Below are positions 4,306 to 64,000 of a stretch of DNA of 64,000 nucleotides, one piece after another (the first letter of the stretch is position 1; every line of letters begins with the position of its first letter). Both the position numbers and the translations under genes were made by a program. Origin of the DNA: Limnanthes douglasii subsp. nivea (taxonomy: Eukaryota; Streptophyta; Magnoliopsida; Brassicales; Limnanthaceae). The notes beneath the pieces were generated by a model. The model was not told where the DNA came from. It did no database searches and was given only the letters and a program-made list of their open reading frames with translations. The stretch lies in the NCBI GenBank assembly GCA_036936605.1, contig JAUPFV010000003.1:146972997-147036996 (forward strand), given 5' to 3'.

Positions 4306-4308
4306 AAT

Positions 4309-4325
4309 TGGCGACCACAGTGGGA
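4309..4325 (+). other. Tat-1 primer-binding site (candidate)
   Basis: TGGCGACCACAGTGGGA, three bases after the LTR end, in the position and with the TGG start expected for complementarity to a tRNA 3' CCA end. Tat-2 has the same site with one change. I do not assign the tRNA. Confidence 0.75.
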
Positions 4326-4377
4326 GGAAAGGGTACCTGAATCAAGCATTCAAAACCTGCCAAGAAACTCTGTTCGT

Positions 4378-10007: not shown

Positions 10008-10501
10008 TAACACTTGTGTAAATATTTACTTGTTTAAACATCCATGTAAATATTTGGGGGCATACTCTTTCCTCCCCGGTGGCGCGGAGAGGTTTTAATG
10101 AGGTGTCCGGGTTGTTAAATAAAATTCGATGCCTTCTTCAAAATTTTCTAAGTGTTTTTAAAATCCAATCCCTTATCATACTATCCGGACTGAAATATCT
10201 AAAGGCTATTTAAATTCTAGCCGGAGAATTTAAACACTATCACAATGCAATATCTAAAAGCTACTTAAACTCTGGCTATCAAAATTAAAATGAACAATGA
10301 AAGAAGGTGATGGTTACACAAAACAGAGATATTCATTAAATGAAACAACTTAAAATTACCTTGGCCTTCCAAGGACTTTCAATAGTCAAGGTACTACACA
10401 AAAAACCTGTCCGGTCAAGCACCGGACACCATTACAAAAAGAGTGTCTTGGCCTTCCAAGGACTTTAGATTGAGTAAAAAATAAACAGAGTAAATTTTGG
10501 G
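10008..10501. other. Tat-1 convergent spacer
   Basis: About 0.5 kb between the 3' end of gag-pol (plus) and the 3' end of the extra gene (minus). It contains two copies of CTTGGCCTTCCAAGGACTTT (near 10360 and 10447). The same motif occurs twice, inverted, in the Tat-2 spacer. Termination signals of both transcripts should lie here, but no certain poly-A site can be read. Confidence 0.6.
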
Positions 10502-13423
10502 TTAAGGTTGAGCCTTTGAAGATGGCTCACCCTCATCTGCCTTCTTACCCTTAGGGTCATCTTTCCCTTCTACTACTTTCTTGCCTTTGGGATCATCTTC
10601 CTCCCTGTCTGGGCTCTCTCCGCTCCTCTCTTCGTCATCAGATGAGGACGCACTGGAGACTCCATCCTCTTCGCCCATTGTGTAATATGGAAGGTCATCA
10701 TCATCTACATAGCTCCACAAGTCCCCTAGGTTTCTCTTCGGAAATTTTTCATGAAAGAGTAGAACCGTGTCAGACCTCACTCTCTCAAGCAATAACTCTT
10801 CACTTTTAATCATCTGGCTGGCATAGGCATTGATCTTGGCATTGATTGTAGCCTCTTGATCCCTTAACAAAGCGTTTCTCTCCTCGCCAGCCTTGGACAC
10901 TACGTTCTCAAGAGTAATCTTGTCAGTAGTCAAGTTGGTGATAGTCTTGTCCTTTGCCTTGATCTCTTCTTTCGAGGCGGTAAGATCTTTCTCCACACCG
11001 GACAGCTTCTCCTGGAGGTCTTTAATGGTTTCCTCTAGAGTGGAAACCTTTGTGGTGCTTTCCTCTTGATTCTTTTTCAGCTTCTCATTTGCCTCCTTTA
11101 GCATGTCAGCATTGGCAGTAGCAGTGCGGAGGTCTTCGGACATCTTTTCTTTCTCAGAATTGAGGTCTTTGATGGTGTCCGCTTGACCCCGGACTTGTCT
11201 TTCCAGTGTAAGTACTGGTTGCACATTGCTGAGCAAAGAATGGGCTATGGTGTCCTTTTCACTAGAAATAATAAAAGTCTTACCATTGAAGTTGACCGTA
11301 TTGGAGCTGCTTGGAGGAATGTAAGGCCCCACGAATTCATCTCTGGGAAGGCTAAGGAAGTATTCACCAAGTCCACCTAGACCGGTGATGTCCACTTCAT
11401 CCAGATTGAGATCTCCCCCTTCCACCTCATCAGTATGAAAGTCCCTTGGGATCTCTTCGGCCAGCGTTGGGTCGGAAGGGTCAGTTGGGAATGAAGGCTC
11501 CGGATCCCGAAGAGCGAGCTCATCTCCCTGCAAAGCCTTTTTCTTTTTGGCTTCCCGGTCAGCGCCTTCACCTTCTTGTTTGCGAGTCCTCTTAGGAGCC
11601 CTTGGAGGTCTTGGAGGGTCTGTTTCCTGCCTTTCGATCTCTTGCTCCACCACTTGCAAGAGATCAGCATCAATTTGGCTCTTTTCCACCTTTTTGCCTC
11701 TTTTCCTACCTTTCATTTTGCTTGGGGCTTTGGCCCGGCCCGGTAGGAAGAGCGTCCCGTCTGGTTCATGGGATCTTTTGAGCACAGTGTCCCCAGAAGG
11801 TTGGGTGGTAAGCTCCTCCCAAGTCAGGTCTCTCCGACCTGTGGTGTTCCACAGGTGAGACCTTGCCAAGTTCCCACTGGTGAAGACACTGTGGAATCGG
11901 TTCCCTTAGTTCTCTGCGGCCCAGGCATTGATTTTGCCACAAGTGACCTGTCCGGCCTTCAAGTAGTCCCCGAACTCCTTAGGAAGTTCTGTTAAAGCAA
12001 AAAAAAGACCAGTTAATTTATACCAACTTAAAAAAAAAAGAAATGGACAAAGATTCGAAGTGTGAAACTTACGGTCACTCCTCCATCTGCTTCTGAGGAG
12101 GCTTGGGTTCTCTCCGGCCTTGATCTTCTTGCCGTTTTCCCAGGCGCCACTGACAAACAAAAACTGGCTCCTCCACTTGCTCTCCGACTCCAACAGATCA
12201 TTGACAGCCTTGAAGTTGTCCCCCATATTAAAGTGATAAAAGGGGAACTGGTGATGTTTGCAAAGGTTGGCCACTGTTGCGAACTCTTCCATAGGGAGAG
12301 GGATCCCGGACAGCCTAGATGCCATGATACATGACATCAGAGTATACCAGCCGTTGGGGCTCAGCTGGCTCGGGCAGAGCTTAACCAGGTGGAAGTATCT
12401 AACGATCTCCGGGTCCAATGGGAACCTGAGTCACCAATTAAATAGCTCTGTAAAAAAGACTATTTCGTTCCGCTTACAATACATAGGGGTCTCCGGATCT
12501 ATGGGAATCCTTATCTTTACGTTTTCTGGGATCCCCCATTTTGTGCGCATTCGACCCAGTTCAGCAGTATGGATGAATGCATACTTGGTCTTCTGTAAGG
12601 CCAAGAGGTATTTGAGCTCAACTCTGTGAAAACACGGCCCCACCTTCTCTTCAAGGCACTCCGGCAGGTCTGGATGCCTCAAGAACAATTTTTCCTTGCC
12701 TTTTTTGGCAGCAGCATTATTAGTCTGGCCGGAGGACTCAGACTCAAAAGGGACTTCTTCAGCAGAGTCCTCCATTCTTTCCTCCATAATTGTCGGGGGG
12801 ATATCCGTGGTAGTTGTCCGGGGAGGATTAAAGCTTGGCTCAGCCTGGCTTCCGGACTGCTGGCCTTCTGTGTTTCTTAGACTTCTAGTCTCAGGCTGGG
12901 GCTCTGAGGCAGAAGTCTCTCTTGGAAGTACCGGGCTGCTGGCCTCCGGATCAGATGGCCTTTCCCGGGGAGCTCTGATGGGCACTCCAGACCCAGAGCT
13001 ACTGTTTTTTGCCCCCGATTTGGAGGGAGTATTCTTGGAGGCTAGCCCTTTAACTAGCCAGCTTATCCTCTTAACTATCAGCTTCTCCGGAGAGTGCTCT
13101 GTGTCAGACCCCATAGCGATAAAAGGAGAAGGTTTCCTAACACTTGTGACTGTAACTCCTGGCTCAACAGCAGGTACTGACTCCTGAACTGAGGAACCAG
13201 AGACTATAGGCGAGAGGGTGGATTGAAATAGTTTTTTGGGTTTAGTACCTTTAGAGGAGGACGATCCTCGATCTGACTCTGTAACGGAGGCGACTGGTCT
13301 GTCAACGGGTGATGAAGGTAGCCCTGCTGCTATTCGTTTCTCCTTCTCAACTTGTTGTGCTCTCTCCAACTCTGAAAGATTGAGCCAGCCGCCTTTGATC
13401 AATGCTGTCCTTGCTGTAAACAT
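10502..13423 (-). pseudogene. Tat-1 antisense extra gene, spliced (two nonsense mutations)
   Basis: Two-exon gene opposite to gag-pol: exon 1 13423-12073, GT-AG intron 12072-11989 (84 bp), exon 2 11988-10502. Joined length is 946 codons including the stop. It starts MFTARTALIKGGWLNLSELE. A Ser/Pro-rich region follows, then a globular domain (RTKWGIPENVKIRIPIDPE, FFTELFNW, DPEIVRYFHLVKLCPSQLSPNG, MSCIMASRLSGIPLPMEE) resembling the plant 'putative gypsy type transposon' family. After the splice come LPKEFGDYLKAGQ, a basic linker, a coiled coil (~11190-10780) and an acidic tail. Stops occur at ~12431 (TGG-TGA, where Tat-2 has TGG-GGA) and ~11909 (TAA for Trp). Function is unknown. The splice sites match Tat-2. 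Confidence 0.87.
11989..12072 (-). other. Intron of Tat-1 antisense gene
   Basis: 84 bp, donor GTAAGT, acceptor AACAG after a T-rich stretch. It lies in phase 1 between codons for RWRSD and LPKEFGDYL, exactly as in Tat-2 (45340-45420), while the intron sequences themselves have diverged. Confidence 0.85.
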
Positions 13424-13842
13424 AAACTACCAAGGAAACCTTTGCTTTAGAGAGAGAAAGCTCTGAGTAAATTTGCAGAGTAAATGTGAAAGAGATAGTA
13501 AAACAGTAGAAAGTGATTTGAATTTATAGTAGATCTGAAAAGAGGAGTTGATTCCTAGGAGAATTCGAAAAGTTTGGCAATGATTAAAAGACTGCGCTGA
13601 TGTCACCATTTGTAATTAAAGAGGTTGCTTTTCGAAGAAGGTGGTGCGAAATTCAAGATGAAAAAACGACTGGAGTTACCAATCAGAGAGCAACACGTGT
13701 CCCACGAACTCTGGCAAAAACCATTTTGTATTCATGAAGCTTTATCTGTCCGGGTAAACCCATAAACCTGTCCGGATTGAAAACTACTTCTAGCATCAGA
13801 CTGTTTTTCAGGTCTCTGACAAGAATACTTGTTCAAACACCT
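13424..13842 (-). promoter_or_regulatory. Upstream region of Tat-1 antisense gene
   Basis: About 420 bp between the antisense start codon (13423) and the polypurine tract. It is partly conserved with 43545-43982 of Tat-2 (for example CACGTGTCCCA near 13695). It must contain the antisense promoter unless transcription starts in the LTR. I cannot pick one TATA box with confidence. Confidence 0.45.
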
Positions 13843-13852
13843 AAAAAATGGG
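13843..13852 (+). other. Tat-1 polypurine tract
   Basis: AAAAAATGGG four bases before the 3' LTR, where plus-strand DNA synthesis should start. Tat-2 has AAAAAAGGGG in the equivalent place. Confidence 0.75.
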
Positions 13853-13856
13853 CTCC

Positions 13857-14293
13857 TGATGAGTCCGAATTCAGCATGCTCCCCGGACAAGGACAGATCG
13901 GTCCAAAGCCTCCGGACCGGACAGATCGGACAGATCACATGGACCGGACAGATCACTTCGAACACTATGACCATAGGACTGTTCGAACTATGACAAAAGT
14001 ACTAAAAAACCTAAACAATCCTTGACTAAGCTACTTGCTCTCCTACTTAGAGCTCATGGGTCTTTGAACATGACCCGGGTTCTTTAAACATGACCCGAAA
14101 GCCCATAAGGGCCCAAACATCACACTATAAATACCCAACCACCTGCATTAACTATGGGTAATGAGAATTAACTGCTACCAAGCTGCTTAATTATCTCTCT
14201 ACTCCCTACTCTAAACCATTCAACACCCACACACCACCTTAAAACACCAATTGAAATTACCAGCCTACCCCCAGGCGATTATTATCCACACCA
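13857..14293 (+). repeat. Tat-1 3' LTR
   Basis: 437-bp LTR matching 3857-4305, with TATA box TATAAATA at 14126-14133 and intact repeated CGGACAGAT motifs at about 13890-13950. It also shares blocks with the Tat-2 LTRs (for example GACCCGGGT and CTATAAATACCC), so the two elements are one family. Confidence 0.95.
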
Positions 14294-31727: not shown

Positions 31728-32054
31728 TCATAATTCTGTTTTATTCAAATTTCTACACATACTAGTATAAGTCATGCAAACAGAATCATTTTGGAACGAA
31801 ACATTAATATTTAACATAAACATACCATTACACAAATATCTGAATCCCATAAATACACCATGTTTTGAAAATACATATTTGTTACTTTCATTCACTTCTT
31901 TGAAACCAAAATTGTTTAAAACAACACCAGACAAAAGATTCTTTTGAAACCGAGAAACATACAATACATTGTTTAATAATATGTATTTTCCAGAAGTAAA
32001 TAATAATTTAACATTTCCTAGTCCTTTAATTGGTTCGGTTGCAACATTTCCCAT
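31728..32054 (-). pseudogene. Copia-3 protease region
   Basis: MGNVATEPIKGLGNVKLLF, then LNNVLYVSRFQKNLLSGVVL, the segment following the active site in Copia proteases. The matching piece at 62994-62716 belongs to Copia-6. Confidence 0.75.
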
Positions 32055-32162
32055 CTTAAGTGAAGATCCATCTTCAATCGATTGAAAATTACTGAACCAT
32101 CGAAGATCCTTACATACATGACTTGTTGCTCGCGAATCAATCCACCAAGCAACATCATTATC

Positions 32163-33066
32163 CTACACATAAAATGCCTCAGAGATTAAAGATATATAAT
32201 TCTTACCATAATTAAAATTCTGAATTAAAATCTGACCTTGTTGCTTTTCAGGATCCTTAGATCCACTTGAACCAGCAATGTTCCCACTTGGACCATCATT
32301 ATTTTTGCCTTTTCCAACTCGAAATCCCTCATAAAGTGACCAGGTTTTCCACATTTCCAGCATGTCATTTTAAGATTTTTGTTAGAAAAATTGTTAGTTT
32401 TGTTGTTGCCTTTTTTAAACTTTCGTTTATTCCCCTTATCCGTATTTGCATTCTTAAGGAACCTACTGTTTTCAACAATATTTACAGATAAGTTTTCCAC
32501 TTGTTTTTTACCTTTAGGATTACTTATTTCATCTTGAGCCCTTAGAGACTATTCAATCTTAAAATGACTACCAAGTTCGACTAAAGTCATTTCTTCTTTG
32601 TTATGTTTCAGAGTGTGTTTAAAATCCTTCCATAAATGAGGCAATTTGTCAATAACAGAAGACACTGAAATACATTCGTCCATTTTTATATTGTGTTGAA
32701 CGAATTGACCTAGAATTCTTGGTAGTTTATTATACTATTCCATCACAGGTTTAGAGTCAACAATTTTGTAATTTATGAAATTACTAACCATGAAATTCCC
32801 ACTAGAAGCGTCTTCTGCCACGTATTTCGATTCAATGGAATCTCATAACTCTTTTGCAGATTTGATATTTTGATATACATCAAACAAAGTATCAGACAAA
32901 CTGTTTAAGATATAGTCGCAAAAAATGTAATTATTATTTTCCCACTTGCAGCATCTCCTTGTTTCTTCCAGTGTTCGAAATCATGCCCTTTAAACTTATC
33001 CGGTTTAGCGAACTTGCTTGTCATCTGCTTCATTGATTCTCCTTCGTTCTTCATCTCTATCTTCAT
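32163..33066 (-). pseudogene. Copia-3 Gag with CCHC zinc knuckle
   Basis: The zinc knuckle CWKCGKPGHFMRD lies near 32370-32330, preceded by a basic Asn/Lys-rich stretch (KRKFKKGNNKTNN). The N-terminal part reads MTSKFAKPDKFKGHDFEHWK near 33030 and breaks into several frames by ~32940. Confidence 0.8.
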
Positions 33067-37010: not shown

Positions 37011-37581
37011 AATTAAAAAATTTAATACTTTTTTATTATTTTATACTATATTTGTTTGTCTTTATCTTATATGTTATATTTAAACCAATATAAATATATT
37101 GTTTTATTTTGATTAATTTTCATTTATAAAACAATAAAAAAAATGGATATTTCTCGCTTTACAAATTATATTTAATTAAAGTTATTTTTTTTGCAAACGA
37201 AAGGTTCCTCCTTACTAGGTTGATTGTCCTTCGTCGAATCCGTTCTTCAATTTTTTGTTATTTTAGTAAAAAAGTACTTAACCAGTACTAAATCAAAAAC
37301 AAAATTATGCTTTTAGTATCTTCAAAGTATGTTTCTACTTTAATTGGCATAAGAAGTAATTTTTTTAGAGAATACATTTTTATTTATAGGTAGGTTCAAA
37401 ATAAGTTCAAGTCCAACCTAGTTAGTTACGTATATAATTAATCAAATAACTATAATATAAGTTTAGTTTAGTTAGAATAATATTTTTTTTAAATAAAGTT
37501 AAGTTCGAAATAGTTTACAAAATAACTCGTTTGATAAATAATATTTGTGGAAGAAACACTTTGGAAACTCATTTTTGAAAT
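37011..37581. other. AT-rich intergenic DNA
   Basis: No gene or repeat boundary recognised. Confidence 0.55.
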
Positions 37582-38281
37582 AACAAATAATATTAAATTT
37601 TTATAAAAATTAAACCGTAAACAACGTTAACTAAGTCCAACCGCTATTCAACCGAAATCCGTTTGCTAGTAGAGTAGATGATGCAACAAGAAACAAAGAG
37701 CTATATAATTTCGTCTCGTGCTCAAAACTTTGGCTATGAACCCAAAACAACAAATAAAGTGAATAAAAACAAGTATGTTAAACTAAACACATATAAGTAG
37801 GATTTAACGTGGTTCAGATCGTGAAAAAAATCCTATATTCATAAACAATGAACACATATTTTAGATATAGGAGGTTAGAAGAAAACTCTCTCAAACACTA
37901 ACACTCAACCATTCATCTTTTATTACAAAATTTTCAGTGCTTACAAAAAGAATTATGAATCTCAGAGTATTCAAAGTGTTTATCTTCTACCTTCCAATAT
38001 CCAAAATCTTTTAGATTACTCTCTTAATAAATTTTTAGCTTATAATTTCGGCAATGACTTCATACCCCTCTCTCACTATTTATAGATGACCAAAAATTTG
38101 TGTATTGTTTTCTATGCTCACACTAGAATATGAACATTTATTTCCTCAACTGTCAAAGCAAACAAATACAAAGGACAAACACGACTCGTAACAACACCTC
38201 TGGAATACTCTTCCACAAATAATCATGCTAAGATAAATAATTCTTTGATCAAATGCTGAGATTGCACATCATTTCAGATTA
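37582..38281 (-). repeat. Copia-type LTR, tandem copy 1
   Basis: About 700 bp, closely similar to 38282-38994 and directly adjacent in the same orientation. The minus strand starts TGCAATCTCAGCATTTGATC and holds a TATA box CTATAAATAG near 38090-38080. It contains ACGTGGTTCAGATCGTGA on the plus strand. Confidence 0.78.
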
Positions 38282-38994
38282 ATAAATAATATTAAATTTT
38301 CACCAAAATTAAACCGAAAAAAACGTCAACTAAGTTCAACCGCTATTCAACCAAAATTCGTTTGTTAGTAGAGTAGATGATGCAACAAGAAATACGGAGG
38401 TATACAATTTCATCTAATGCTCAAAACTTCAGTTATGAACCCACTACAGCAAATCAAATGAATAAGAACAAGAATACTAAACTAAACACACATAAGCCAA
38501 ATTTAACTTGGTTCAGATCGTGAAGAAATCCTACATCCATAGAAAATGAACACATATTTTATATATAGGAGGTTAGAAGAAAACTCTTTCAAATACTAAT
38601 GCTCAACAATTCACCTTTTGTTACAAAGCACTCACTTCTTACAAAAACAATTATGAATCTTAGAATATTCAAAGTGTTTATCTTCTACCTCCCAATATCT
38701 AAAATATTTCAGGTTACTCTCTCAAGCAATCTTAGCTTATAATTTCGGCAATGACTTCATACCACTTTCTCACTATTTATAGATGACCAAATATATGTGT
38801 ATTATTCTCCATGCTCACACTAGCATATGCCAACTCATTTTCTTAATTGTCCAAACACACTAATGCAAAGGACAATCAGTAGTTCTGACATTCGTACGAC
38901 TGGTAGCGACACCTCTTTGGACTACCCTTCCAAAAGATAAGCATGCTAAGGTCAACAATTCTTTGATCAAATGCTGAGATTACACATTAATTCA
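38282..38994 (-). repeat. Copia-type LTR, tandem copy 2
   Basis: Second copy of the 0.7-kb repeat, with start TGTAATCTCAGCATTTGATC near 38985 and TATA near 38780-38770. It adjoins the Copia-4 body, so it may be the 3' LTR of that element. Confidence 0.78.
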
Positions 38995-43060: not shown

Positions 43061-43065
43061 AAAAT
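43061..43065. other. Tat-2 left target-site duplication (AAAAT)
   Basis: AAAAT immediately before TGGTGTGG, repeated at 50538-50542. Confidence 0.93.
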
Positions 43066-43544
43066 TGGTGTGGATAAAAATGGCCTGGGGGTAGGCAAGT
43101 AATTTCAAGTGGAGTTTTAAGGCGGTGTAAGGGTGTTTCGAGGTGTTTCAAGGTGGTGTGAGGGTGTTTCGAGGTGTTTCAAGGTGGAGAGAGAATTAAG
43201 CAGCTTGGCAGCAGTTAATTTTTGTTACCCATAGTTAATGCTGGTGGTTGGGTATTTATAGTATGATACTTGGGCCCTTATGGGCTTTCGGGTCATGTTT
43301 AATGGACCCGGGTCATGTTTAAAGACCCATGAATTTTAAGCAGATGGGCAGGTAGCTTAGTCAGAAAGTGTTTAGGTTTTTTAGTAATTTAGTCATAGTT
43401 CGAACAGCCTTAAGCTCACAGTGTTCGAGTCATCTGTCCGGTTCAAAAGTCCCGTCCGATTTAAGTTCTTAGTGTCTGTCCGGTTTACGGAGAGATTTAC
43501 ATTGGTTTGCCCATCCGGGGAGCATTCCGAATTCGGACTCATCA
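43066..43544 (-). repeat. Tat-2 3' LTR
   Basis: 479 bp; the minus strand starts TGATGAGTCCGAATTCGG and ends CCACACCA. It contains a ~37-bp tandem duplication (plus-strand GGGTGTTTCGAGGTGTTTCA twice near 43131 and 43161) and TATAAATA on the minus strand at 43260-43253. Confidence 0.95.
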
Positions 43545-43982
43545 GGAGCCCCTTTTTTAGGTGTTTGAACAAGCGTCCTTGTCAAAGAACTGAAAAACAG
43601 TCCGATTTAGGAAGTGGTTTTCAATTCGAAGAGAGTTGGGGACAAACCCGGACAGACCGAACGTTACGAATTCCAAACGGTTCTTACCAGAGTTAATGGG
43701 ACACGTGTCACTCTCTGATTGGTCACTTTAGCCGTTTTTTCACTTTGAACTTCGCACCACTTTCTCGAACAAGTTACCTCTTTTAAATGCCATTAATGAC
43801 ATCAGTGTCGTCTTTTAATCATTGCCCAACTTTTCGGATTCTCCTAGGAATCAACTCCTTTTTTCACATTTACTGTAAATTCTAATTCACTTTTCACTGT
43901 CTCATTATCTCTTTCAAATTTCACTCTGTAATTTTACTCAGAGCTTTATCTCTCTAGAACTTCAAAACTTCCTTGGTTGTTC

Positions 43983-46967
43983 ATGTTTACAGCAAGAACA
44001 GCACTGATCAAGGACGGCTGGCTTAACCTCTCGGAATTGGAGAAAGCTCAAAGAGTTGAGAAGGAAAAACGACTTGCTGCAGGGCTACCATCGTCGCGTA
44101 TTGAGAAACCAGCCTCTTCTGTCGCAGAATCTGATAGAGGTTCATCTTCTTCCAAAGGTACAAAACCTAAAAAACTCTTTCAATCAACGCTCTCCCCCAT
44201 AGTATCTGGCTCCTTAGTTCAGGAGTCGATCCCTGCTGTTGAATAGGGAGTTACTGTCACAAGTGTTAGGAAAAAATCTTCTTTCATTGCTATGGGGTCT
44301 GACTCTGACCATTCCCCGGATAAGTTAATCATGAAAAGGCCAAGTCGGTTGGTCAAAGGGCTTTCTTCTAAAAACACACCCTCGAAATCGGGGGCGAAAG
44401 ATAGTGAATCAGGGTCTGGGGCAACTATAAGGGCTCCCCGGGAGAGGCTGTCAGGACTAGAGGCCAGCAGCCCACTACCCCCCAAGGAATCTTCTGCCTC
44501 AGAAACTCAAATTGAGGTGAGAAGTCGAGTAAATACGGACAGCCAACGGTTCGGAGGATCAGCTATGCCAAGCCTCAATCCTCCCCGGACTACTTCTACA
44601 GAAGCTCCCCCAACAATTATGGAGGAGAGGATGGAGGATTCCACTGAGGAGGTTAGATTTGAGTCCGAGTCTTCCGGACAGGCTGATATTGCTACTGTTG
44701 TTGCCAAGAAGGGCAAAGAGGACTTATATCTGAGGCACCCGGACCTGCCGGAGAGCCTTGAAGGGAGAGTAGGGCCATGCTTTCATAAAGTCGAGCTCAA
44801 GTATCTTTCAGCTTTGCTAAGGACCAAGTATGCGTTCATCCATACTTCAGATCTGGGTCGATTGCGCACTAAGTGGGGGATTCCTGAGAATGTAAAGATA
44901 CGAATTCCCATCGATCCGGAGACCCCGATGGACTGCAAAAGGAATGAGATAGTCTTCTTCACAGAGCTATTCAATTGGGGACTCAGGTTCCCACTGGACC
45001 CGGAGATAGTGCGCTATTTTCACTTGGTCAAGCTCTGCCCGACACAGCTAAGCCCCAACGGTTGGTTCACCTTGATGTCATGTATTTTGGCGTCTAGGTT
45101 ATCTGGAATCCCTCTTCCTATGGAAGAGTTTGCAGCTGTGGCCAGCTTGTGTAAACATCATCAGTTCCCCTTCTATCATTTCAACATGGGGAATGACCTT
45201 AAAGCTGTTGATGATCTCCTGGAATTGGAGAGTAAATGGAGGAGCCAATTCTTGTTTGTCAGTAGCTCATGGGAAAATGGAAAGAAAATCAAGGCCGGGG
45301 AGAATCCAAGCCTTCTTCGGAGTAGATGGAGGAGCGATCGTAAGTTTTTACTTTAAGCTTATGTTCGAATCTCTCTTTTCTTTAAGTTTATGCTAATTAG
45401 TTTCTCTTTTGTTTTATCAGAGCTGCCAAAGGAGTTCGGGGACTACCTGAAGGCCGGACAGGTCACTTGTGGCAAAATCAACGCTTGGGCCGCAGAGAAC
45501 TGGGAGAACCGGTTCCATAAAGCCTTCACTCCTGGGAACTTAGCAAGGTCTCACCTGTGGAACACCACAGGTCGAAGAGACCTAAATTGGGAGGAGTTCT
45601 CCACCCAACCTGATGAAGACATCGTGCTGAGAAGGTCTCATGAACTGGATGGGACTCTCTTCCTGCCTGCCCGGGCCAAAGCCCCAAGTAAAATGAAGGG
45701 CAAGAAGAAGAAAGGCAAGAGGGTGGCAGGTGACAATGAGAAGGAGGCCCCAACAGACACAGAAGGACTGGCACAGGTTCAAATTGATGCAGCCCTTTTA
45801 CAAGTGGTGGAACAGGAGAGCGAGAAGCAGGAAGTGAACCTCCCTAAGCCCTCAAGGGCTTCTAAGAGGACTCGCAAGCAAACAAGTGAGAGTGCTGATA
45901 GGGAGGCCAAGAAGAAGAAGACTTCCCAAGGAGATGAGGTTGCTCTCCGGGACCCGGAGCCTTCTTTTCCTACTGACCCAACATTGGGTGAAGAGATCCC
46001 AAGGGACTTGCAAGAAGAGATCCCAAGGGAGTTCCATACAGATGAAGTTGAGGGGGGAGAGCTTAACTTAGATGAAATGGACATCACCGGTCTGGGTGGA
46101 CTTGGTGAATATTTTCTTGGGCTGCCCAGAGATGAGTTCGCAGGGCCCTATGTCCCTCCAAGCAGCTCCAACACAGTTAATTTCAACGGTAAGACTTTTA
46201 TGGTTTCCAGTGAGAGGGATGTTATAGCCCATTCTATCCTTAGCAACGTGCAACCAATACTTACTTTGGAAAGGCAAGTCCGAAGTCAGGCAGACACCAT
46301 CAAAGACCTCAAGTCGGAGAAGGAAAAACTGTCCGAGGACCTCCGGACTGCTGCCAATAAGGTTGATTTTCTCAAGGAGGCAAATGATCAGCTAAAGAAG
46401 AATCAAGATGAAAACAACACAAAAGTTGTTTCCTTGGAAGAGACCGTAAAAGATCTCCGGGCTAAGCTGTCCGGACTGGAGAAGGACCTGACAATCTCAA
46501 GGGGAGAAACTGCAGCAAAGGAGAAGCTCGTCACCAACTTGACCACTGACAAAATTGCTTTAGAGAATGCAGTGACTCAGGCTGCTGAAGAGAAAGCTGC
46601 TTTGGTGAGGGATCAAGAGGCCATGATTAAGGCCAGGATCAACGCCTATGTCAGGGAGATGATCCAAAGCGAGGAGCTAATGATCCAAAAGGTGAAGTCT
46701 GATATGGTCCTCCTGTTTCACGAGAAATTCCCGAAGAGGAGACTAGGGGAATTATGGCGCTATGTGGATGATGATGATCTCCCATACTGGACCATGGTTG
46801 ATGAGGGGTACTCCGGTGAGTCTTCGTCCGGTGATGAAGAGGAAACCGGAGAGAGCCCAGGTGAGGAAGAGATTGACCCCAAGGGTAAGAAGATAGTCGA
46901 AGAGAAAAGCGACATCAAGGGCAAGAAAGCAAATGAGGGTGAGCCATCTTCAAAGGCTCAACCTTAA
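43983..46967 (+). pseudogene. Tat-2 antisense extra gene, spliced (one nonsense codon)
   Basis: Exon 1 43983-45339, intron 45340-45420 (81 bp, GTAAGT...ATCAG), exon 2 45421-46967: 968 codons including the stop. The start ATG 43983 gives MFTARTALIKDGWLNLSELE as in Tat-1. An in-frame TAG at 44244-44246 (codon 88) is the only break. If read through or bypassed, or started at the Met at 44292, the rest is open. Regions: Ser/Pro-rich ~90-230, globular domain ~240-450 (WGIPENVKIRIPIDPE, LFNWGLRFPLDPEIVRYFHL, LCPTQLSPNGW), basic linker with KMKGKKKKGKR, possible nuclear signal, coiled coil ~750-880, acidic tail. It resembles the plant 'putative gypsy type transposon' family. Biochemical role unknown. 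Confidence 0.88.
45340..45420 (+). other. Intron of Tat-2 antisense gene
   Basis: 81 bp, donor GTAAGT, T-rich 3' part, acceptor TTTATCAG. Phase 1, same position as in Tat-1. The exon junction gives RSDQLPKEFGDYL in both. Confidence 0.87.
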
Positions 46968-47420: not shown

Positions 47421-49985
47421 TTATTCTAAGTACATTCGAAGGTGTTCAATATTCCAAGGGTGAGTTAAAACCCTGCCATCTTTGTCTTCCAACCAGTATG
47501 TCCCAGGCTTGATTCTTTCAACCACAGTATACGGACCCTCCCAAGTTGGGGCCAGTTTTCCGAAGAGCTTTTCCTTAGTATGCAAGAAAACTTTCCTTAA
47601 TACTTTATCTCCTGGTTGAAAATCTCTTCTTTTAACTTTAGAAGCAAACCTGCTTCTCATCAAGCCCTGATAGTGTGCCATTCTAAGATGAGCTTTCACC
47701 CGTCTTTCTTCGATCAAATCAAGCTGATTTCTAATTACCATCTCATTAGCATGTCCGGAGAAGTTATGAACACGAAAGGAGGGGAGTGTCTTCTCTATGG
47801 GAGCTACTGCATCCATTCCATAGACCAAGGAAAAAGGGGATTCTTGTGTTTCAGCCCCAGGTGTTGTCCGGTAGGCCCACAAGACTTCTTGTAGATAACT
47901 AGGCCATTTTCCAGCAGCCCCTTCCAAATTTTTCTTTAAACCGGACAGTATTGTTCTATTAGCCACTTCAACTTGCCCATTGGCTTGTGGGTGGAAAGGT
48001 GAAGAAAAGCAGTGCTGAATACCTCTTGAGGTACAGAAGCTTTCCATCTCTCTATTGTCAAACTGTGGCCCATTGTCTGTTGTTATTTTCTGGGGGACAC
48101 CAAATCTGCAACATATGTTGGATAGAATGAATTTTATGACAGCTTTTGAGGTTGTCCCTGCCAAGGGGGCTGCTTCTATCCACTTCGAGAAGTAGTCAAT
48201 GGCTACAATTATGGTTTTACGCCCTCTGGACGCCACAGGGAGAGGCCCAACTAAGTCCAATCCCCATCGAGCAAAAGGGATGGGCTCAGAAATTGATTCC
48301 AAAGGAATGGCTGGTACATGAATTTCATTGTTGTACCTCTGGCATGGGTCACACCTTCTTACCAGCTCCTTAGCATCTTTCATAATTGATGGCCAATAGT
48401 ATCCGGAGAGTAGCATTTTTCTTGTTAAAGCTCTAAATCCACAATGGGCTGATCCCTCACCATCATGCAATTCGGAGAGAACTGTCTGTGATTCATGATC
48501 CCCTAAACAACGTAGGAGAGGTTTGCTATAGGATTTTTTGTACAACACTTCTCTTAACATCAGGAAACCACGAGCCATGTGTTTCAACGTTCTGGCTTGT
48601 GATTTATCCAAGGGCACGATGCCATCGGACCGGTAGTGTACCTCATCTTTTGTTTTATCGAAAATGGTTGCCACACTTTCTTTGAGTTCCGCAAACCACT
48701 CCGGTTGGACCCATGGTCCTCTTTTGTTTCTAGACTGTTGACTTTGAGCAGGAGCAGCTGGTTGAGACTGAGCTTTTCCCCTACCATGCCCCTGTCCGGT
48801 TTCTCTAGCTTTATTCCCGGATTGGTTTTGATTTGGAGTTGGTGCCACCGGGGTGGATCTCACCTGTCTGTGCACCCTGGTCTTTTTTGTTTCATCAACA
48901 TTTATTTGCTTGCCAACTTGGTTTAGCAATCCTCCCCAGGTCATGGCTTTCTTCCTGGTCACCGAATCAGCCAGGTTGCCTGGGTTCAAACCTTGTCTTA
49001 GGGATGCTATTGCCACCTGTTCGAAGCAATCAGCCAACCCATTTTTTGTGTTCACAAAACGACTTATGTACTCCTTTAACAACTCATTTGGCTCTTGGGC
49101 ACAATGGATTATGGTATCTCCATTACCCTTCAGCTCCTTACTCCCCACAAACTGCCTTCGAAAGGCCACCCAAAAAGTATCAAAGTCTCTGATACAACCC
49201 TGAGGCAGGCTGTTGTACCACTTCAGAGCACTCCCCGTGAAGGATTGGGAGAATGCCCTACAGAGTAGTTTATCATCATCATCAAAGTTTATCATGAAGT
49301 TCTTGAATTGCTCCAGATGATTTTCCGGATCAGTACTGCCATCGTACTTCTCCATCTTGGTGCTGTCAAACCTCTTGGGGAGGTTCCCGGATAGAATTTT
49401 AGAAGACAATGGAGATTGCCTCCAATTCCTTCCACGACTGAACACAGTATCCTCATTAGGAGTTGCAAAGATACCTGGCTCATCATGGAAGGCAAAAGGA
49501 TCCATCAGCATCCGATCTACATGCCTCCGGTTGTGAGATGATCCTTTTCCAATATGCCTTTTCATTCTTCCATGGTGATCTCTTTTTCTGGAATATTTCT
49601 TAACTTGCTTTTGTTTCTTCTTGGTTCGACCCTCATCACTGCTGGAGGACAAGGATTTTTCATTTCCCTCACTGTCCGAAGAGCTGTCCGAAGACTCTGA
49701 ACTCGATTCAGAACTCTCCACAGGCTTGGACCGGTGAGACTTTTTAGAGCTGGCATGTGTCTTCTTTGTGCTCACATGAGTTTTCGAAGCCTCAGGCTCT
49801 CGAGGGTTGTCAGTGTGATGAGCAGCGGACCCTTTGGATTTCTCTTTCATGCCCATCTTGGCCTTTTCAGCCCTCAGAGCTTCTATCTCAAGCTTTAACC
49901 TGTCGCGCTCTTGGACAGTATACTCATCATTCTCCTCCACCACTTCGAGCAAGGCTGGTGGAAGCTCTGGATTATCCGGATTCAT
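47421..49985 (-). CDS. Tat-2 Gag-integrase fusion protein (854 residues)
   Basis: Start taken at ATG 49985 (MNPDNPELPP), as in Tat-1. Upstream in-frame sequence runs into the LTR. Residues 1-451 are Gag: charged N-terminus, Ser/Lys-rich region (SESSSESSDSSSDSEGNE), Gag core (ALKWYNSLPQGCIRDFDTF), Gln/Pro-rich tail. At residue ~452 it passes straight into integrase: intact zinc finger (RRCDPCQRYNNE), core with AIDYFSKW, TTDNGPQFD and HPQANGQVEVANR, and the C-terminal WEGPYTVVERIKPGTYWLED, ending IEHLRMYLE. There is no chromodomain. No stop or frameshift in 2565 bases. Protease, RT and both RNase H domains are absent, so this element would need enzymes from a relative. Confidence 0.9.
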   Translation of the reverse strand: MNPDNPELPPALLEVVEENDEYTVQERDRLKLEIEALRAEKAKMGMKEKSKGSAAHHTDNPREPEASKTHVSTKKTHASSKKSHRSKPVESSESSSESSDSSSDSEGNEKSLSSSSDEGRTKKKQKQVKKYSRKRDHHGRMKRHIGKGSSHNRRHVDRMLMDPFAFHDEPGIFATPNEDTVFSRGRNWRQSPLSSKILSGNLPKRFDSTKMEKYDGSTDPENHLEQFKNFMINFDDDDKLLCRAFSQSFTGSALKWYNSLPQGCIRDFDTFWVAFRRQFVGSKELKGNGDTIIHCAQEPNELLKEYISRFVNTKNGLADCFEQVAIASLRQGLNPGNLADSVTRKKAMTWGGLLNQVGKQINVDETKKTRVHRQVRSTPVAPTPNQNQSGNKARETGQGHGRGKAQSQPAAPAQSQQSRNKRGPWVQPEWFAELKESVATIFDKTKDEVHYRSDGIVPLDKSQARTLKHMARGFLMLREVLYKKSYSKPLLRCLGDHESQTVLSELHDGEGSAHCGFRALTRKMLLSGYYWPSIMKDAKELVRRCDPCQRYNNEIHVPAIPLESISEPIPFARWGLDLVGPLPVASRGRKTIIVAIDYFSKWIEAAPLAGTTSKAVIKFILSNICCRFGVPQKITTDNGPQFDNREMESFCTSRGIQHCFSSPFHPQANGQVEVANRTILSGLKKNLEGAAGKWPSYLQEVLWAYRTTPGAETQESPFSLVYGMDAVAPIEKTLPSFRVHNFSGHANEMVIRNQLDLIEERRVKAHLRMAHYQGLMRSRFASKVKRRDFQPGDKVLRKVFLHTKEKLFGKLAPTWEGPYTVVERIKPGTYWLEDKDGRVLTHPWNIEHLRMYLE

Positions 49986-50039
49986 TCGGATAGAAATTCT
50001 TTGCTTGGTTTCGAATACTTGATTCAGGCACCGTCGCCT

Positions 50040-50056
50040 CCCATTGTGGTCGCCAA
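50040..50056 (-). other. Tat-2 primer-binding site (candidate)
   Basis: Minus strand TGGCGACCACAATGGGA, directly after the 5' LTR, one base different from Tat-1. Confidence 0.75.
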
Positions 50057-50058
50057 TT

Positions 50059-50537
50059 TGGTGTGGATAAAAATGGCCTGGGGGTAGGCAAGTAATTTCA
50101 AGTGGAGTTTTAAGGCGGTGTAAGGGTGTTTCGAGGTGTTTCAAGTGGTGTGAGGGTGTTTCGAGGTGTTTCAAGGTGGAGAGAGAATTAAGCAGCTTGG
50201 CAGCAGTTAATTTTTGTTACCCATAGTTAATGCTGGTGGTTGGGTATTTATAGTATGATACTTGGGCCCTTATGGGCTTTCGGGTCATGTTTAATGGACC
50301 CGGGTCATGTTTAAAGACCCATGAGTTTTAAGCAGATGGGCAGGTAGCTTAGTCAGAAAGTGTTTAGGTTTTTTAGTACTTTAGTCATAGTTCGAACAGC
50401 CTTAAGCTCACAGTGTTCGAAGTCATCTATCCGGTTCAAAAGTCATGTCCGATTTAAGTTCTTAGTGTCTGTCCGGTTTACGAAGAGATTTACATTGGTC
50501 TGCCCTTCCGGGGAGCATTCCGAATTCGGACTCATCA
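50059..50537 (-). repeat. Tat-2 5' LTR
   Basis: 479 bp, about eight substitutions and two single-base indels from the 3' LTR. TATAAATA at 50252-50245. It contains the same tandem duplication. Confidence 0.95.
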
Positions 50538-50542
50538 AAAAT
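50538..50542. other. Tat-2 right target-site duplication (AAAAT)
   Basis: Matches 43061-43065. Confidence 0.93.
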
Positions 50543-56062: not shown

Positions 56063-57438
56063 TTACACCCTTTGATCATTGTTTAACCTTGAGTCGAGAA
56101 CGTATCTTTTAAAGAGAGAAAATTTCAACCCGAAATTCTCTATTTGCTCTTTCATGCCTGAAGAGTTTATCAATCTTAAACGGTATACGCTTTGGAGGTG
56201 GTTTAATATCTAAAATAAAATTGCTGCTCGCAGACCTTCTGATGGATATCTAGAAATCAATCTTTCGCAACAAATGGTCCCCTATCCAAAAACGTTCTTT
56301 CCCTGGTACTCAACCCTCCGTTTGAGCTTGTTTTAGTGATAACAAGGTTGACCCTTATACGTCTGATCTTTCTTCCAACACTTATCCCTTCTTAAAGGGA
56401 AAGCCGACTAAAATAGATGCAAGGGAACACATTAAAAGGAAAAGGTCCCCAGATACACCTGCAAAATCTATCAGAGTGAAAATCTCATCTTCTGCTGCAA
56501 CCCCTCAAGTGACTCCGCAGGGGTCACTGCAAACGACTTCAAAAGTAAGTCCCAGGAAGTATTCAAGAAGGGATGTTCGGTTAGAGCAGGTTTTGATATC
56601 CATCTCTGAAATCCAAGAGAGAAATTTAGTTGATGAGCCGGACAGCGATCAGGAACAACTTGATGTGGTAGTGATTGAGGCACAGCCCTTAAGAGCCGTT
56701 CCTGCTGTGATTCCTACCCCCAGACCATCTGCGCCAAGTCAAGAGGCCTCTTATCCTCCCCTAGAAACTACCACTGATCCACCTTCTTGGAGTGAAAAAG
56801 CTTACTTGGTGAAGAAAGACAAGAAGAAAAGGAGACGCACTACAGATCTGCCCTCAAACATATAAGATGTTTTAGGTGACAACCTTTACGATATTGAGTC
56901 GAAGCATCTTCTTGCCTTTTATAAAGTGAAGTACAAATACTTTCATCCGATCGAGGAAGCAAAACTGAGAGATCGGTGGAGGATACCCGAGAACATCACA
57001 ATTCGGTTTCCCACCGTCGGACAGACTCCGTTGTCTGTTCGCAATCATGAGCTGATCCTTTATACCGAGCTCATGAATTGGGGCCTACATCTACCCATTG
57101 ATCTGATCTGGTGGAATACTTCCACCTTATCGAACTTTGCCCCTCTCAAGCTGGCGCCAACATACGGTACACACTCATGGCCTGCATCATGGCCTCCATG
57201 CTTTCTGAAATAGCATTTTCCATGAAGCAGCTTATCTCCATCTCAGGCGTGGCTAAGAACTCTCATTACCCTTTTTACTCTCTTGGTTTTGCAAGGCAGT
57301 TTAAGGTGATCAGAGATTTCTTAGAGGCTGATAAAAAGTATAAGCAACAGTTTGTCTTTATTTTCAGGCTATGGGAAACACACTTTAAAAGCTCTGACGA
57401 CCTTCCCCATCGGTTAACTTTAAAGTGGTCTGAGCAGG

Positions 57439-57518
57439 GTACGTATTCTTACACAGTCTTATGTTTTGTTAGTTAAGGTTGGATAGTCCTAACATATTTC
57501 TTTCTAACATTTTTGAAG
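57439..57518 (+). other. Probable intron of Tat-3 antisense gene
   Basis: GT donor (GTACGT) after WSEQ codons in phase 1 and acceptor TTTTTGAAG, 80 bp. Position, phase and length agree with the introns at 12072-11989 and 45340-45420. Confidence 0.6.
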
Positions 57519-58176
57519 GGAATTGTCAAGCCCTTTTAAAAGTCACGCTAAAGGTCCAAGGGCATATTTGTGAAGCCTAACGCCTGAGCAGGTGAGCATT
57601 GGGATCATAAATTTCATCAAAATTTTCTACCAATGAACTTTATAAAAAGAAACGTTTGGAAGTATGACCTTGGAGAGAAAAGGTCAATGTCTGATCTTAT
57701 GGTGCCTCCTCCAAATGATGTCATCCTTAAACGCCTGGAATGCCTAGAAAATGCAGTATACCTTCTTACTGCGAGCTTGGGCTCCGAGTTACCAAGATGC
57801 GGAAAAACCCGAGGAAGGTGGTGAGGGAACTGAGGAAGATGCAAATTCAGAGAGTGATGCCCCCGAGGAGAAAGGAGTTGGAGCCCAAGGCGATCACCAG
57901 GATGAGACTCATGAGGATATGCCATCAGAAATTCAGCAAGTGCACCCAATGGCTCCCCAAACAAGTCCTCTAACCAACGCTTAGGGAGAAGAATTGAAGG
58001 GTGCTGATAATTTTGTTGAAGTGAGACCAGCTGAGAGAGCTGGGGCTATAAAACCAAAAGTACTTACTGCAGAAGAAAAGCAAAAGAGAGTGGTTGATAG
58101 TGAAGGAGAGAGTGACAACACAACATGTCCGGGCTTGCCTCCGATAACGAAGGTTATTTTAGTCGACTCGGACTCC

Positions 58177-59261: not shown

Positions 59262-59476
59262 AGAATATAAATTCTTGTCCAAATTTCTTTGGAGTGTGTT
59301 TTGAGTTTAAAAATATGAACTTTCTTGTCCAAACTTCTTTGGAATACCTTTTGAGTTCAAAAAGATGAACATTCTGGTCCAAAATATTTTGGAGTGCCTT
59401 TTCAGTTCAAAAAGATGAACATTCTAGTCCAAACTTTTTTAGAGTGCCTTTTGATTTTAAAAAGATGAACATTCTG
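59262..59476. repeat. 50-bp tandem repeat in Tat-3 spacer
   Basis: About 4.3 copies of a 50-bp unit with AAAAAGATGAACATTCTGGT and CCAAAATATTTTGGAGTGCC. It lies between the convergent gene ends. Confidence 0.88.
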
Positions 59477-60839: not shown

Positions 60840-62712
60840 TTATATCTCACTCCTCCAATTTGGAATTTGGAAGGCCTCGACACCTCCTTCAACCGATTCA
60901 GATCCCTTAACGATTGAGGGATTTTCTTGGATGACTATCCATGGGTACTTCTCTAAGTAAGATGATTTTGCTAAATAATCAACCACTAAATTCCCAGCCC
61001 TATGAACATGTTCGAATTTGAAATCTTCGAAACTCAAGGTTAAGGCCTTCAAGACCCCCAGATACTTTACTAAATGATCTTTTCTTGCATCTAATCGTCC
61101 GAAAGCATGGTTCACTAGAAGTTGTGAATCACTTATCAACCTGACTCTTTTGGCTCCATAAATTTTTGCAAGTCTTAAGCCAGCAAAAGCTGCTTCGTAC
61201 ACTGCTTCATTGTTTGATACTTTAAACCCGAGTCGGATAGCTTGATGCATAGCAATTCCATCCGGAGAAGTCAATTGTACTCCTGCACGACAACGAGATA
61301 AGCTTGATCCCGGGTCAGTTCGAACTACCCACTCTGAGCCAGATTCTTATTTATGAATACCCATTTCATTCCAATTGGAGGGAAATTCAACTAAGAAGTC
61401 AGCTAACGTTTGTGCTTTGATAGTAGTTCGTGGTTCAAATTAAATATCAAAATCTCCAAGCTCAACCGACCACTTTGTCATCCTTCCCGATACATCAGGA
61501 CTTTGTAGCATGTTCTTCAACGGAAAATATATTCGTACCACAATTGAATGAGCCTGAAAGTAAGGCCTCATTTTCTGCGCAGATGTTACCAATGAAGTGC
61601 CAATTTTTTCTAATTTAAGGTATCACTTATGTGCATCCTGAAGACTCTTACTTATATAATAAACTCACTTCGGGACGTTTGACTCTACTCGGATCAAGAC
61701 CCGCGAAATCTGACATTGCCAAATAAATGAACAACTTCTCCCCCTGATTTAGCTTGGTCAGGATTTCTGGGGAGGAAAGGTATTCTTTAATCTGGTTACA
61801 CGTATCCGAACATTCTTGTGTCCAATCGAAGCATTTTTCTTTTTCAGTACCTGAAAGAAAGGTGCACATTTATCTGAGGACCTCGATATAAATCTGCTTA
61901 GCGCTGCCAATCTTACAGTCATGATCGGTACTTCTTTGATTGTTCTTGGTGGGGCCATAGTACATAGAGCATATAGATGTAACGGGTCGACTTCAATACC
62001 CTGTTCACTGACTATGTAACCTAAAACAATTCTGGATCTTACCCCGAACATGCACTTCTCTGGGTTCAATTTTAAATTTATCTTGGCCAAATTGGAAAAA
62101 GTTTCTTCTAACTCAGCGAAATGATTCTCATTTTTGAGGCTCTTAACTAGCATGTCAACGATGTAGACCTCAACATTTCTGCTAATCTGACTCCCAAAAT
62201 CTTTGTTCACTAAGCGTTGATATGTTGCCCCAACGTTCTTTAATCTGAATGACATCACCTTGTAACAGTGCAAACCCCTCTAGTAATAAAAGTTGTGCTC
62301 TCTTGGTCCCTTGGGTTCATCTGGATTTGATTGTACCCAGCATAGGCATCTGTAAAAGATAACAAACAATTTTTCGGACGTCGAGTCGACTAACTGATCC
62401 ATTCTAGGAACAAGGAAAGGATCTTTGGGACAAGCTCTGTTCAAATTGATAAATTCCACACACATTCGCCACTTGTTGTTTTTATTCTTTACTAAGACTG
62501 GGTTAACAATCCACAAAGAATACTGTGACTCACGTATGTGGACCATTTTTGTTAAACGGTCCACCTCTAGCATTATTACTTCTGCTTTTTCTTGAGAAAA
62601 TTTATTCTCTTCTGTATGATCGGACGAACATTGTTTCGTATTGCTAGCCTATAAAAAATGACATCTGCCGGCACCCATGTAACATTTTTTGTACACAAAG
62701 CAAACAAGTCTA
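60840..62712 (-). pseudogene. Tat-3 RT and dual RNase H (broken)
   Basis: RT: LEVDRLTKMVHIRESQYSLW and KWRMCVEFINLNRACPKDPF (62573-62280), RLKNVGATYQRLVNKDFGSQ, then YIVDMLVKS in place of YIDDM, so a catalytic Asp is changed (62273-61758). RNase H relic near 61869-61648 (FIYLAMSDF). The archaeal-type second RNase H is open at 61274-60840 (SNNEAVYEAAFAGLRLAKI, LISDSQLLVNHAFGRLDARK). The junction with Copia-6 is close to 62720. Confidence 0.87.
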
Positions 62713-62719
62713 ATTTCAT

Positions 62720-64000
62720 AGAAAGAAATTAGACAAAAGATTATTTCGAATCCCAAGAACATACAATATATTGTTTAATAATATGTATTTTTCATAAGTA
62801 AAAAATAATTTAAAATTTCTGAGTCCTTTAATTGGTTCAGTTGCAACATTTCCCATCTTAAGTGAAGATCCATATTCAATTGGTTGAAAATTACTGAACC
62901 ATCGAAGCAATATCATCATCCTACACATAATATGCCTCAGATAGTAAAGATATATAATTCTGACTAGAATTAAAATTCTGAAATAAAGTCTCACCTTGTT
63001 GCTTTACAGGATCCTTAGATCCACTTGAACCACCGATGTTCCCACTTCGACCAGTATTATTTTGTCTTTTCTAACTCGACAATCCCTCATAAAGTGACTA
63101 GGTTTACAACGTTTCTAGCATGTCATTTTAGGATTTTTGTTCGAGAAATTGTTGTTTTTGTTGCTGCCTTTAAACTTTCATTTATTCCTCTTATCCGTAT
63201 TTGCATTCTTAAAGAATCCGCTGCTTTCAGCCATATTTCCAGACAAGTTTCCCACTTGGTTTTTACCCTTAGGATTACTTATTTCATCTTGAGCCCTTAG
63301 AGACTCTTCAATCTTAGAATAACTACCAAGTTTGACTAAATTCATTTCTTCTTCGTTATGGTTCATAGTGTGTTTAAAATCCTTCCATGAAGGAGAGAAT
63401 TTTTAAAAAATAGAAGACACTGAAATACATTCGTCTATTTTCATATTGTGTTGAACGAATTGACCCCAGAATTCTTATTAGTTTATTATTCAGTTCCATC
63501 ACAGGTCAGGTCTCGTGTCAACTATTTTGTATTTTATGAAATGACTAACCATGAACTTCCTACTAGAAGCATCTTCTGCCATGTATTTCAATTCAATAGA
63601 ATCTCATAACTCTTTTGCAGATTCGATATTTTGGTATACATCAAACAAAGTATCCGACATATTGTTTAATATGTGGTCGCGAAAAATGTAGTCATCATTC
63701 TCCGACATGCTGCTTCTCCTTGTTTGTTCCAGTGTCGTAAATCATGCCCTTCAAACTTATCCAGTTTATCGAACTTGCTTGTCATCTCCTTCGTTGATTC
63801 TCCTTCGTTCGTCATCTCTATCTTCATAAAAAAGAACAAACAAATTCAATATTCTGTATGGAATATAGTTTAAATTTCGAGATAAATCTCTGAAGTCTTG
63901 TTTATCAATTTCAGATTGACTTTATTTCTCCAAAATATTCAATTGGATAAAATTAGAGAAAAATTCTATCGAATAGTGAGTATCGATAATGTTGTGTTTT
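62720..64000 (-). mobile_element. Copia-6: second copy of the Copia-3 family (runs off window)
   Basis: Minus-strand Gag and protease start closely similar to Copia-3: MGNVATEPIKGLRNFKLFF (62870-62716) and Gag with FFKNANTDKRNK near 63200. The zinc knuckle CWKCGKPGHFMRD of Copia-3 is damaged here, and 45 bp near 62907 are deleted. The leader at 63840-64000 matches 33100-33240. It is cut at ~62720 against Tat-3. Confidence 0.83.

Follow-up and report, generated by a model that had tools for sequence, protein, structure and literature searches.

An antisense gene of Tat/Retand-type retrotransposons probably carries a conserved spliceosomal intron and is under purifying selection

Retroelements seldom contain introns, since any intron in the genomic RNA is lost by splicing. 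What, then, is an intron doing in a long antisense gene of a plant long terminal repeat (LTR) retrotransposon? The question is raised by a 64,000-nucleotide stretch of Limnanthes douglasii subsp. nivea (contig JAUPFV010000003.1, positions 146,972,997 to 147,036,996; hereafter the window), part of a 1.78-Gb assembly (GCA_036936605.1), the one genome from which all copy counts below come. A reading of the letters alone (the sequence-only reading) had placed in each of three Tat-lineage elements, Tat-1, Tat-2, and Tat-3, a long two-exon gene opposite to gag-pol with a short phase-1 intron. The answer may lie in the orientation. The genomic RNA of a retrotransposon is the opposite strand, on which the spliceosome cannot read an antisense intron, so that such an intron persists through reverse transcription each time; splicing would be open only to an antisense transcript produced in the nucleus. 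From the sequence evidence, we consider the antisense gene and its intron very likely to be real, and the overall explanation that we favor, as probable rather than secure, is a spliced antisense accessory gene with a nuclear role.

In Tat-2 the gene runs on the plus strand from 43983 to 46967, between the end of integrase (47421) and the 3′ LTR, and reads from ATG to TAA through exon 1 (43983..45339), one phase-1 GT-AG intron of 81 bp (45340..45420), and exon 2 (45421..46967). The intron contains a CTAAT branch-like motif and an in-frame stop (45354-45356). Its counterpart in Tat-1 lies on the minus strand (13423-10502), with exon 1 at 12073..13423, a phase-1 GT-AG intron of 84 bp at 12072-11989, and exon 2 at 10502..11988. 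Both introns enter after base 1 of a codon, both genes are about 950 codons long (the spliced frame has 968 codons counting the stop in Tat-2 and 946 in Tat-1), and the spliced products share 79% identity across the 945 codons that align. The two-exon structure thus stands for these two elements, with one correction: the sequence-only reading had not reported the nonsense codons inside the frames, one in Tat-2 (codon 88, 44244-44246) and two in Tat-1 (codon 331 in exon 1 and codon 478 in exon 2), and because of them neither copy is able to make the full protein. No TATA motif was matched within 560 bp upstream of the Tat-2 ATG, so a TATA-driven promoter was rejected; a CACGTG G-box, an inverted CCAAT box, and a CT-rich leader were noted upstream of the ATG by eye.

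Searching the assembly with exon 1 of Tat-2 (111 places scored of 85,324 candidates) yielded 110 places besides Tat-2 itself, 93-98% identical to its exon 1, and we examined the antisense gene in 40 of these 110, picked from the best-scoring places and not at random. The intron was present in all 40: it ended in AG in every copy and began with GT in 38 (the exceptions being one AT and one GC), carried a CTAAC or CTAAT motif in 39, and in all 40 included a stop in frame with exon 1, while the starting ATG was found in 37. Lengths were 81 bp in 27 copies, 83 bp in seven, and 82, 80, and 78 bp in two each. The spliced frame is open from ATG to stop in 14 of the 40, and in four of these 14 the intron measures 82 or 83 bp; because these lengths are not multiples of three, the exons of the four copies share a frame only once spliced. 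Variability was 0.024 in the donor hexamer versus 0.113 in the intron body and 0.157 and 0.144 at the adjacent third codon positions, and was highest in the final 11 intron bases (0.172), though the AG is kept. GT-AG ends, a branch-like motif, a T-rich body, and indels free of the reading frame are the traits of a spliceosomal intron seen here. Separately, some copies (L011-L014, L022, L027, and L030) are mosaic over codons ~400-560, with a tract near the intron 89-93% identical to Tat-2 and neighboring tracts mostly 95-99% identical to it, and L016 joins a Tat-2-like exon 1 to an intron and exon 2 of another type.

We also searched the genome for both forms of the junction with 34-base patterns, allowing up to 3 mismatches; both patterns are Tat-2-type, and more diverged families lie outside their reach. 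The border of exon 1 and intron matched 918 times and the spliced junction not once, with no match for either reversed control. A 180-base query of the joined exons returned split matches only (40 scored of 3,891 candidates), with the exception of a single place, 71% identical, where the match crosses the junction with 53 extra bases; neither search found an intron-free retrocopy. The lack of intron loss fits replication from sense RNA and by itself does not demonstrate splicing.

The intron extends beyond the close relatives of Tat-2. Exon 1 encodes a domain of the PF04195 type (Transposase_28, TRP28), and a genome search with PF04195 (150 places scored of 20,529 candidates) gave 138 matches among the 150, all above the cut-off, compared with one match, below the cut-off, in the control genomes (in E. 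coli). Of these matches above the cut-off we examined seven with long frames, of which L083-L086 and L088 form a separate family and L087 and L089 are closer to Tat-1/Tat-2. Six of the seven have an intron at the identical position and phase, with lengths of 147, 150, 218, 82, 80, and 77 bp, four of which are not multiples of three. The end of exon 1 has been lost from L086, and in L087 exon 2 is open for 22 codons only. In an alignment of 10 sequences (Tat-1, Tat-2, L089, L083-L085, L088, and three of the 11 Tat-3 relatives described below) the domain continues over the spliced junction, and residues are shared on both sides of it (in exon 2, for example, W-x-[NH]-[RK]-F and LW), which makes the conserved unit about 200 residues long, with PF04195 covering 69. 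Altogether, three further groups of the genome besides Tat-1/Tat-2 agree with them in where the intron lies and in its phase, and the overall length range at that position is 77-218 bp. The 12 PF04195 loci L071-L082 are mostly decayed: L071, L077, and L079-L082 are not readable for the intron, and L072-L076 and L078 each have a T-rich stretch whose closing AG precedes CTA, five of the six with a branch-like motif and none with a clear donor, a pattern that we take only as a hint of an intron. Near-equal PF04195 matches also cluster at C334:7.31-7.67 Mb (nine), C223:155.26-155.35 Mb (four), and C441:277.10-277.30 Mb (three), probably as segmental or tandem duplications, and several of these clustered places carry 459-amino-acid frames.

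Judging from its sequence, Tat-3 is a decayed relative or copy, and the claim of an equivalent gene there did not survive. Its match to the Tat-2 protein is confined to 56848-57764 on the plus strand, is 28-34% identical, contains stops and a change of frame, and comprises a decayed piece of exon 1 (56848..57438) and the start of exon 2 (57511..57764). A search with the globular piece (150 places scored of 58,251 candidates) returned 12 loci including Tat-3 itself. Among the 11 relatives, an AG two bases before ATGAA or ATAAA is found in nine, a GT donor in nine, and both in seven; the ten measurable introns are 70 bp (six), 71 bp (one), or 72 bp (three) long, and L065 has no recognizable acceptor. 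By homology the Tat-3 intron is 72 bp long (57439..57510), with the donor GTACGT retained and AT at the acceptor (57510), versus AG in nine of the 11 relatives examined, so the 3′ splice site of Tat-3 has been lost; the 80-bp intron proposed earlier ends 8 nt too far downstream. A tandem array of a 50-bp unit (59271-59475, 4.1 copies) adjoins the Tat-3 antisense region.

The reading frame itself is conserved. Comparing Tat-1 with Tat-2 (945 aligned codons, 941 counted with stops excluded), we obtained a ratio of nonsynonymous to synonymous substitution (dN/dS) of 0.105 (bootstrap 95% 0.083-0.134; dN 0.123, dS 1.17), with 133, 108, and 395 differences at codon positions 1, 2, and 3. The globular part of exon 1 gave 0.03 and the remaining parts 0.115-0.16. 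The two shifted sense frames gave 1.6 and 1.7 and the antisense frames opposite the gene 1.5, 0.21, and 2.0, the value of 0.21 belonging to the frame whose third positions coincide with those of the gene. For the same pair of elements, dN/dS was 0.11 in gag (518 codons) and 0.08 in integrase (403 codons). Among genome copies the median pairwise value was 0.135 for 21 colinear copies (a set that leaves out L015, which has two frameshifts) and 0.145 for the 11 open ones among them. No open reading frame (ORF) of at least 150 amino acids lies opposite the Tat-2 gene, and one of 185 amino acids lies opposite that of Tat-1. We conclude that the antisense gene is under frame-specific purifying selection; the earlier suggestion that it had been kept over time is borne out, and dN/dS among family members is not near 1. 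As a further observation, the antisense gene has a Tat-1/Tat-2 dS (1.17) about 2.3 times that of gag (0.52) or integrase (0.46), both compared over Tat-1 3914-9265, which suggests an exchange of the 3′ module between element families.

The product begins with a long serine-/proline-rich stretch, disordered in the sequence-only reading, followed by the globular TRP28-type domain, two basic segments, a coil, and an acidic end. The globular domain had been likened to the ‘putative gypsy type transposon’ family, and this agrees with the PF04195 match in Tat-2 (44952..45122, profile positions 1-58 of 69), which scores 18.7 bits and, across Tat-2 and three copies tested, 18.7-19.3 bits, under the gathering cut-off of 26.2. 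The basic segments of Tat-2, at residues 543-553 (45690..45722) and 601-619 (45864..45920, bipartite), resemble nuclear localization signals (NLSs) by eye and are retained in Tat-1, Tat-2, and the genome copies. Heptad periodicity supports the coiled coil (p ≤ 0.003 for residues 701-840 of Tat-2, 46164..46583; p ≤ 0.01 in Tat-1), and the acidic end has a net charge of -15 in Tat-2 (residues 901-950, 46764..46913) and -6 in Tat-1 (residues 901-946). The domain order described earlier is therefore upheld for Tat-1 and Tat-2, and in Tat-3 one 43-residue match (E = 0.009) gives weak support to the coil and tail. Residues 120-480 of an 879-residue query found no match at E ≤ 0.001 among 3,387 candidates in a protein database whose plant coverage is unsure, PDB sequences gave no match at E ≤ 1, and IMG/VR gave one pattern match, with no relative by tblastn. 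Exon 2 has weak coil matches to unrelated Pfam families.

An antisense TRP28 gene has already been described as typical of Retand elements. In a survey of the lineage (Vicient 2025, PMC11963269), as far as its main text goes, an antisense TRP28 (PF04195) ORF is reported in 97% of Retand clusters, with DNA binding predicted; of 104 antisense ORFs, 57 had TRP28, and once short ORFs are included only two clusters are without it. The survey relied on an ORF finder, and its main text never mentions an intron, whereas our copies divide the gene into two exons and the domain spans the junction. If our gene model holds, ORF-finder surveys would list the gene as two ORFs, one with TRP28 and one with the coiled coil; the separate Smc/Mis12-type antisense ORFs of the survey may correspond to exon 2 of such genes, and the weak coil matches of our exon 2 show how such labels can arise. 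Our literature search found no paper on an intron in the antisense TRP28 gene. Thus the gene was known, as the sequence-only reading had allowed for antisense ORFs in Tat/Retand-type elements, and its intron is apparently new, without certainty of priority; the evidence for a conserved intron is far stronger here than that reading could offer.

Three systems offer comparisons, as far as the cited articles describe them. Grande gene23 is likewise an antisense accessory gene between pol and the 3′ LTR, a likeness of position; its product is reported to be nuclear and to have its own promoter, antisense transcription is reported for both Grande and Retand, and the same article calls for the study of antisense and spliced transcripts (Vicient and Casacuberta 2020, PMC7264820). 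HBZ of human T-cell leukemia virus type 1 (HTLV-1) resembles our gene in being antisense near the 3′ LTR and interrupted by an intron and in having basic segments and a coil; its message is spliced and its protein nuclear, whereas for ours splicing is predicted from the gene sequence and a nuclear location from NLS-like segments recognized by eye. HBZ also differs in being a basic leucine zipper protein with no TRP28 domain, in using a 3′ LTR promoter, and in that splicing alters only its N terminus, and we claim no sequence relation (PMC5744428). Ogre elements are, like these, Tat-clade LTR elements with a conserved intron, but theirs separates gag-protease from reverse transcriptase (RT) on the sense RNA and is spliced from only part of the transcripts (PMC6317226); the antisense intron described here, unlike that of Ogre, cannot be spliced out of the genomic RNA.

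From these features we envisage that Tat/Retand-type Ty3-gypsy elements carry an accessory gene that runs antisense in the interval from integrase to the 3′ LTR and contains one short spliceosomal intron. The antisense mRNA would be driven by a promoter in the stretch that separates the 3′ LTR from the ATG; the protein would oligomerize through its coil and enter the nucleus by means of the basic segments, where the TRP28 domain might act on the DNA of the element or on its integration complex, and sense transcription or integration would be regulated as with the spliced antisense HBZ of HTLV-1. The product may thus be a nuclear accessory protein loosely comparable to HBZ, and we regard a nuclear regulatory role, by analogy, as plausible but somewhat short of probable.

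The alternative that most deserves weight is a cytoplasmic role: the protein would partner the virus-like particle by binding Gag, RNA, or integrase and would not be a nuclear regulator. A coil with an acidic tail would suit such a partner, as would selection as strong as that on gag and integrase, yet the retention of the two NLS-like segments in Tat-1, Tat-2, and the copies and the reported nuclear location of the Grande product (PMC7264820) point the other way, and we consider it unlikely. It is appreciably less likely that the antisense RNA matters and the frame is secondary, the RNA pairing with sense genomic RNA and exerting control via double-stranded or small RNAs. This mechanism has been proposed for antisense transcripts of LTR elements, among which those of Grande and Retand are reported (PMC7264820), but it would not predict a dN/dS of 0.105 with 395 third-position changes against 133 and 108, nor four of 14 open copies that keep their frame only with splicing; RNA and protein roles could coexist.

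Could there be no functional intron, the gap being a short lineage-specific insertion between separate antisense ORFs? The stop-free 84-bp gap of Tat-1 and the open, in-frame 147-bp gap of L083 would permit this reading, and it gains from splicing having been read from DNA; GT, CTAAY, and AG are nonetheless conserved at one position and phase while length is free (77-218 bp), a stop interrupts 40 of 40 introns of the Tat-2 group, and a single domain carries on across the junction, so we give it very little credence. Least credible of all is that conservation reflects mere recency or opposite-strand coding. The Tat-2 LTRs are 97.7% identical and the copies 93-98% identical, but dS between Tat-1 and Tat-2 is 1.17; the Tat-2 gene has no opposing ORF of at least 150 amino acids (that of Tat-1 has the 185-residue one), and two of the three antisense frames give 1.5 and 2.0, the third (0.21) sharing the third positions of the gene. 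Several points do weigh against a spliced nuclear gene as the preferred explanation. Splicing is read from DNA, and the genome-wide search with Tat-2-type patterns found no intron-free retrocopy, which would have proved it. The Tat-1 intron is in frame and without a stop, so a readthrough form is possible there, as it is for the 147-bp intron of L083. The window contains no intact copy of the antisense gene, the PF04195 score of Tat-2 (18.7 bits) is below the cut-off of 26.2, two AlphaFold predictions (window-only alignments of five rows each) were unusable, with a mean predicted local distance difference test (pLDDT) of 34.2 and 38.8, and the proposed function is an analogy with HBZ and not a result.

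The elements themselves place the gene within a lineage. Tat-2 lies on the minus strand between LTRs of 479 bp, the 3′ LTR at 43066..43544 and the 5′ LTR at 50059..50537 (97.7% identical in a 484-column blastn alignment that includes a few flanking bases), with target duplications AAAAT at 43061-43065 and 50538-50542 and a purine tract at 43548-43557. The description of the gene as opposite gag-pol needs amending for Tat-2, whose fused ORF of 931 amino acids (47421..50216, minus strand) matched profiles of gag and integrase and none of RT or RNase H. Relative to Tat-1, with its RT ORF at 6721-8775, Tat-2 has lost ~3.06 kb (the protease/RT/RNase H part) at a junction near 48630-48640 with ~11 nt shared, and this loss produced the 931-residue ORF. 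A genome search found this junction pattern at a single place, which makes the deletion private to this copy, and an amplified gag-integrase family was rejected. The region from pol to the 3′ LTR is ~3.9 kb in both Tat-1 (9985 to 13857) and Tat-2 (47421 to 43544), within the 2,933-6,566 bp given for Retand (PMC11963269, main text), and the LTRs (479 bp in Tat-2, 453/441 bp in Tat-1) are within the Retand range of 315-1,194 bp. The internal region of Tat-1 (~9.5 kb) is within the 7.4-12.9 kb of Retand, and that of Tat-2 (6.5 kb) falls below it because of the deletion. By this anatomy we would assign both to the Retand lineage (Tat clade, Ty3-gypsy). Elsewhere in the window, a direct repeat of several blocks (31910-33045 and 62712-63806, 87-88% identical, ~30.8 kb apart) lies outside the three Tat antisense genes, and two direct-repeat blocks of 249 and 211 nt (85% identical, ~699-nt spacing) occupy 37581-38733.

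When several families of a single genome share an antisense intron in position and phase, in a gene whose dN/dS is like that of gag and integrase, the implication is a message that is made, spliced, and translated for the benefit of the element. A captured spliced message would be without an intron, so the intron also offers a clue to the origin of the gene. We raise, as a conjecture that we hold more loosely than the nuclear role, that across Tat/Retand elements the TRP28 antisense gene had this intron from the outset: an intron-bearing host gene would have been captured unspliced in antisense, its orientation would have shielded the intron, the ‘TRP28’ and ‘Smc-like’ ORFs of the survey would each represent one exon of a single nuclear protein, and its production would be limited by the intron to the integrated, nuclear-transcribed copy. 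The two-exon structure would give a widespread accessory gene a better gene model and its exon junction a clean marker for the timing of antisense expression, and a known but unexplained reading frame would become a testable spliced gene.
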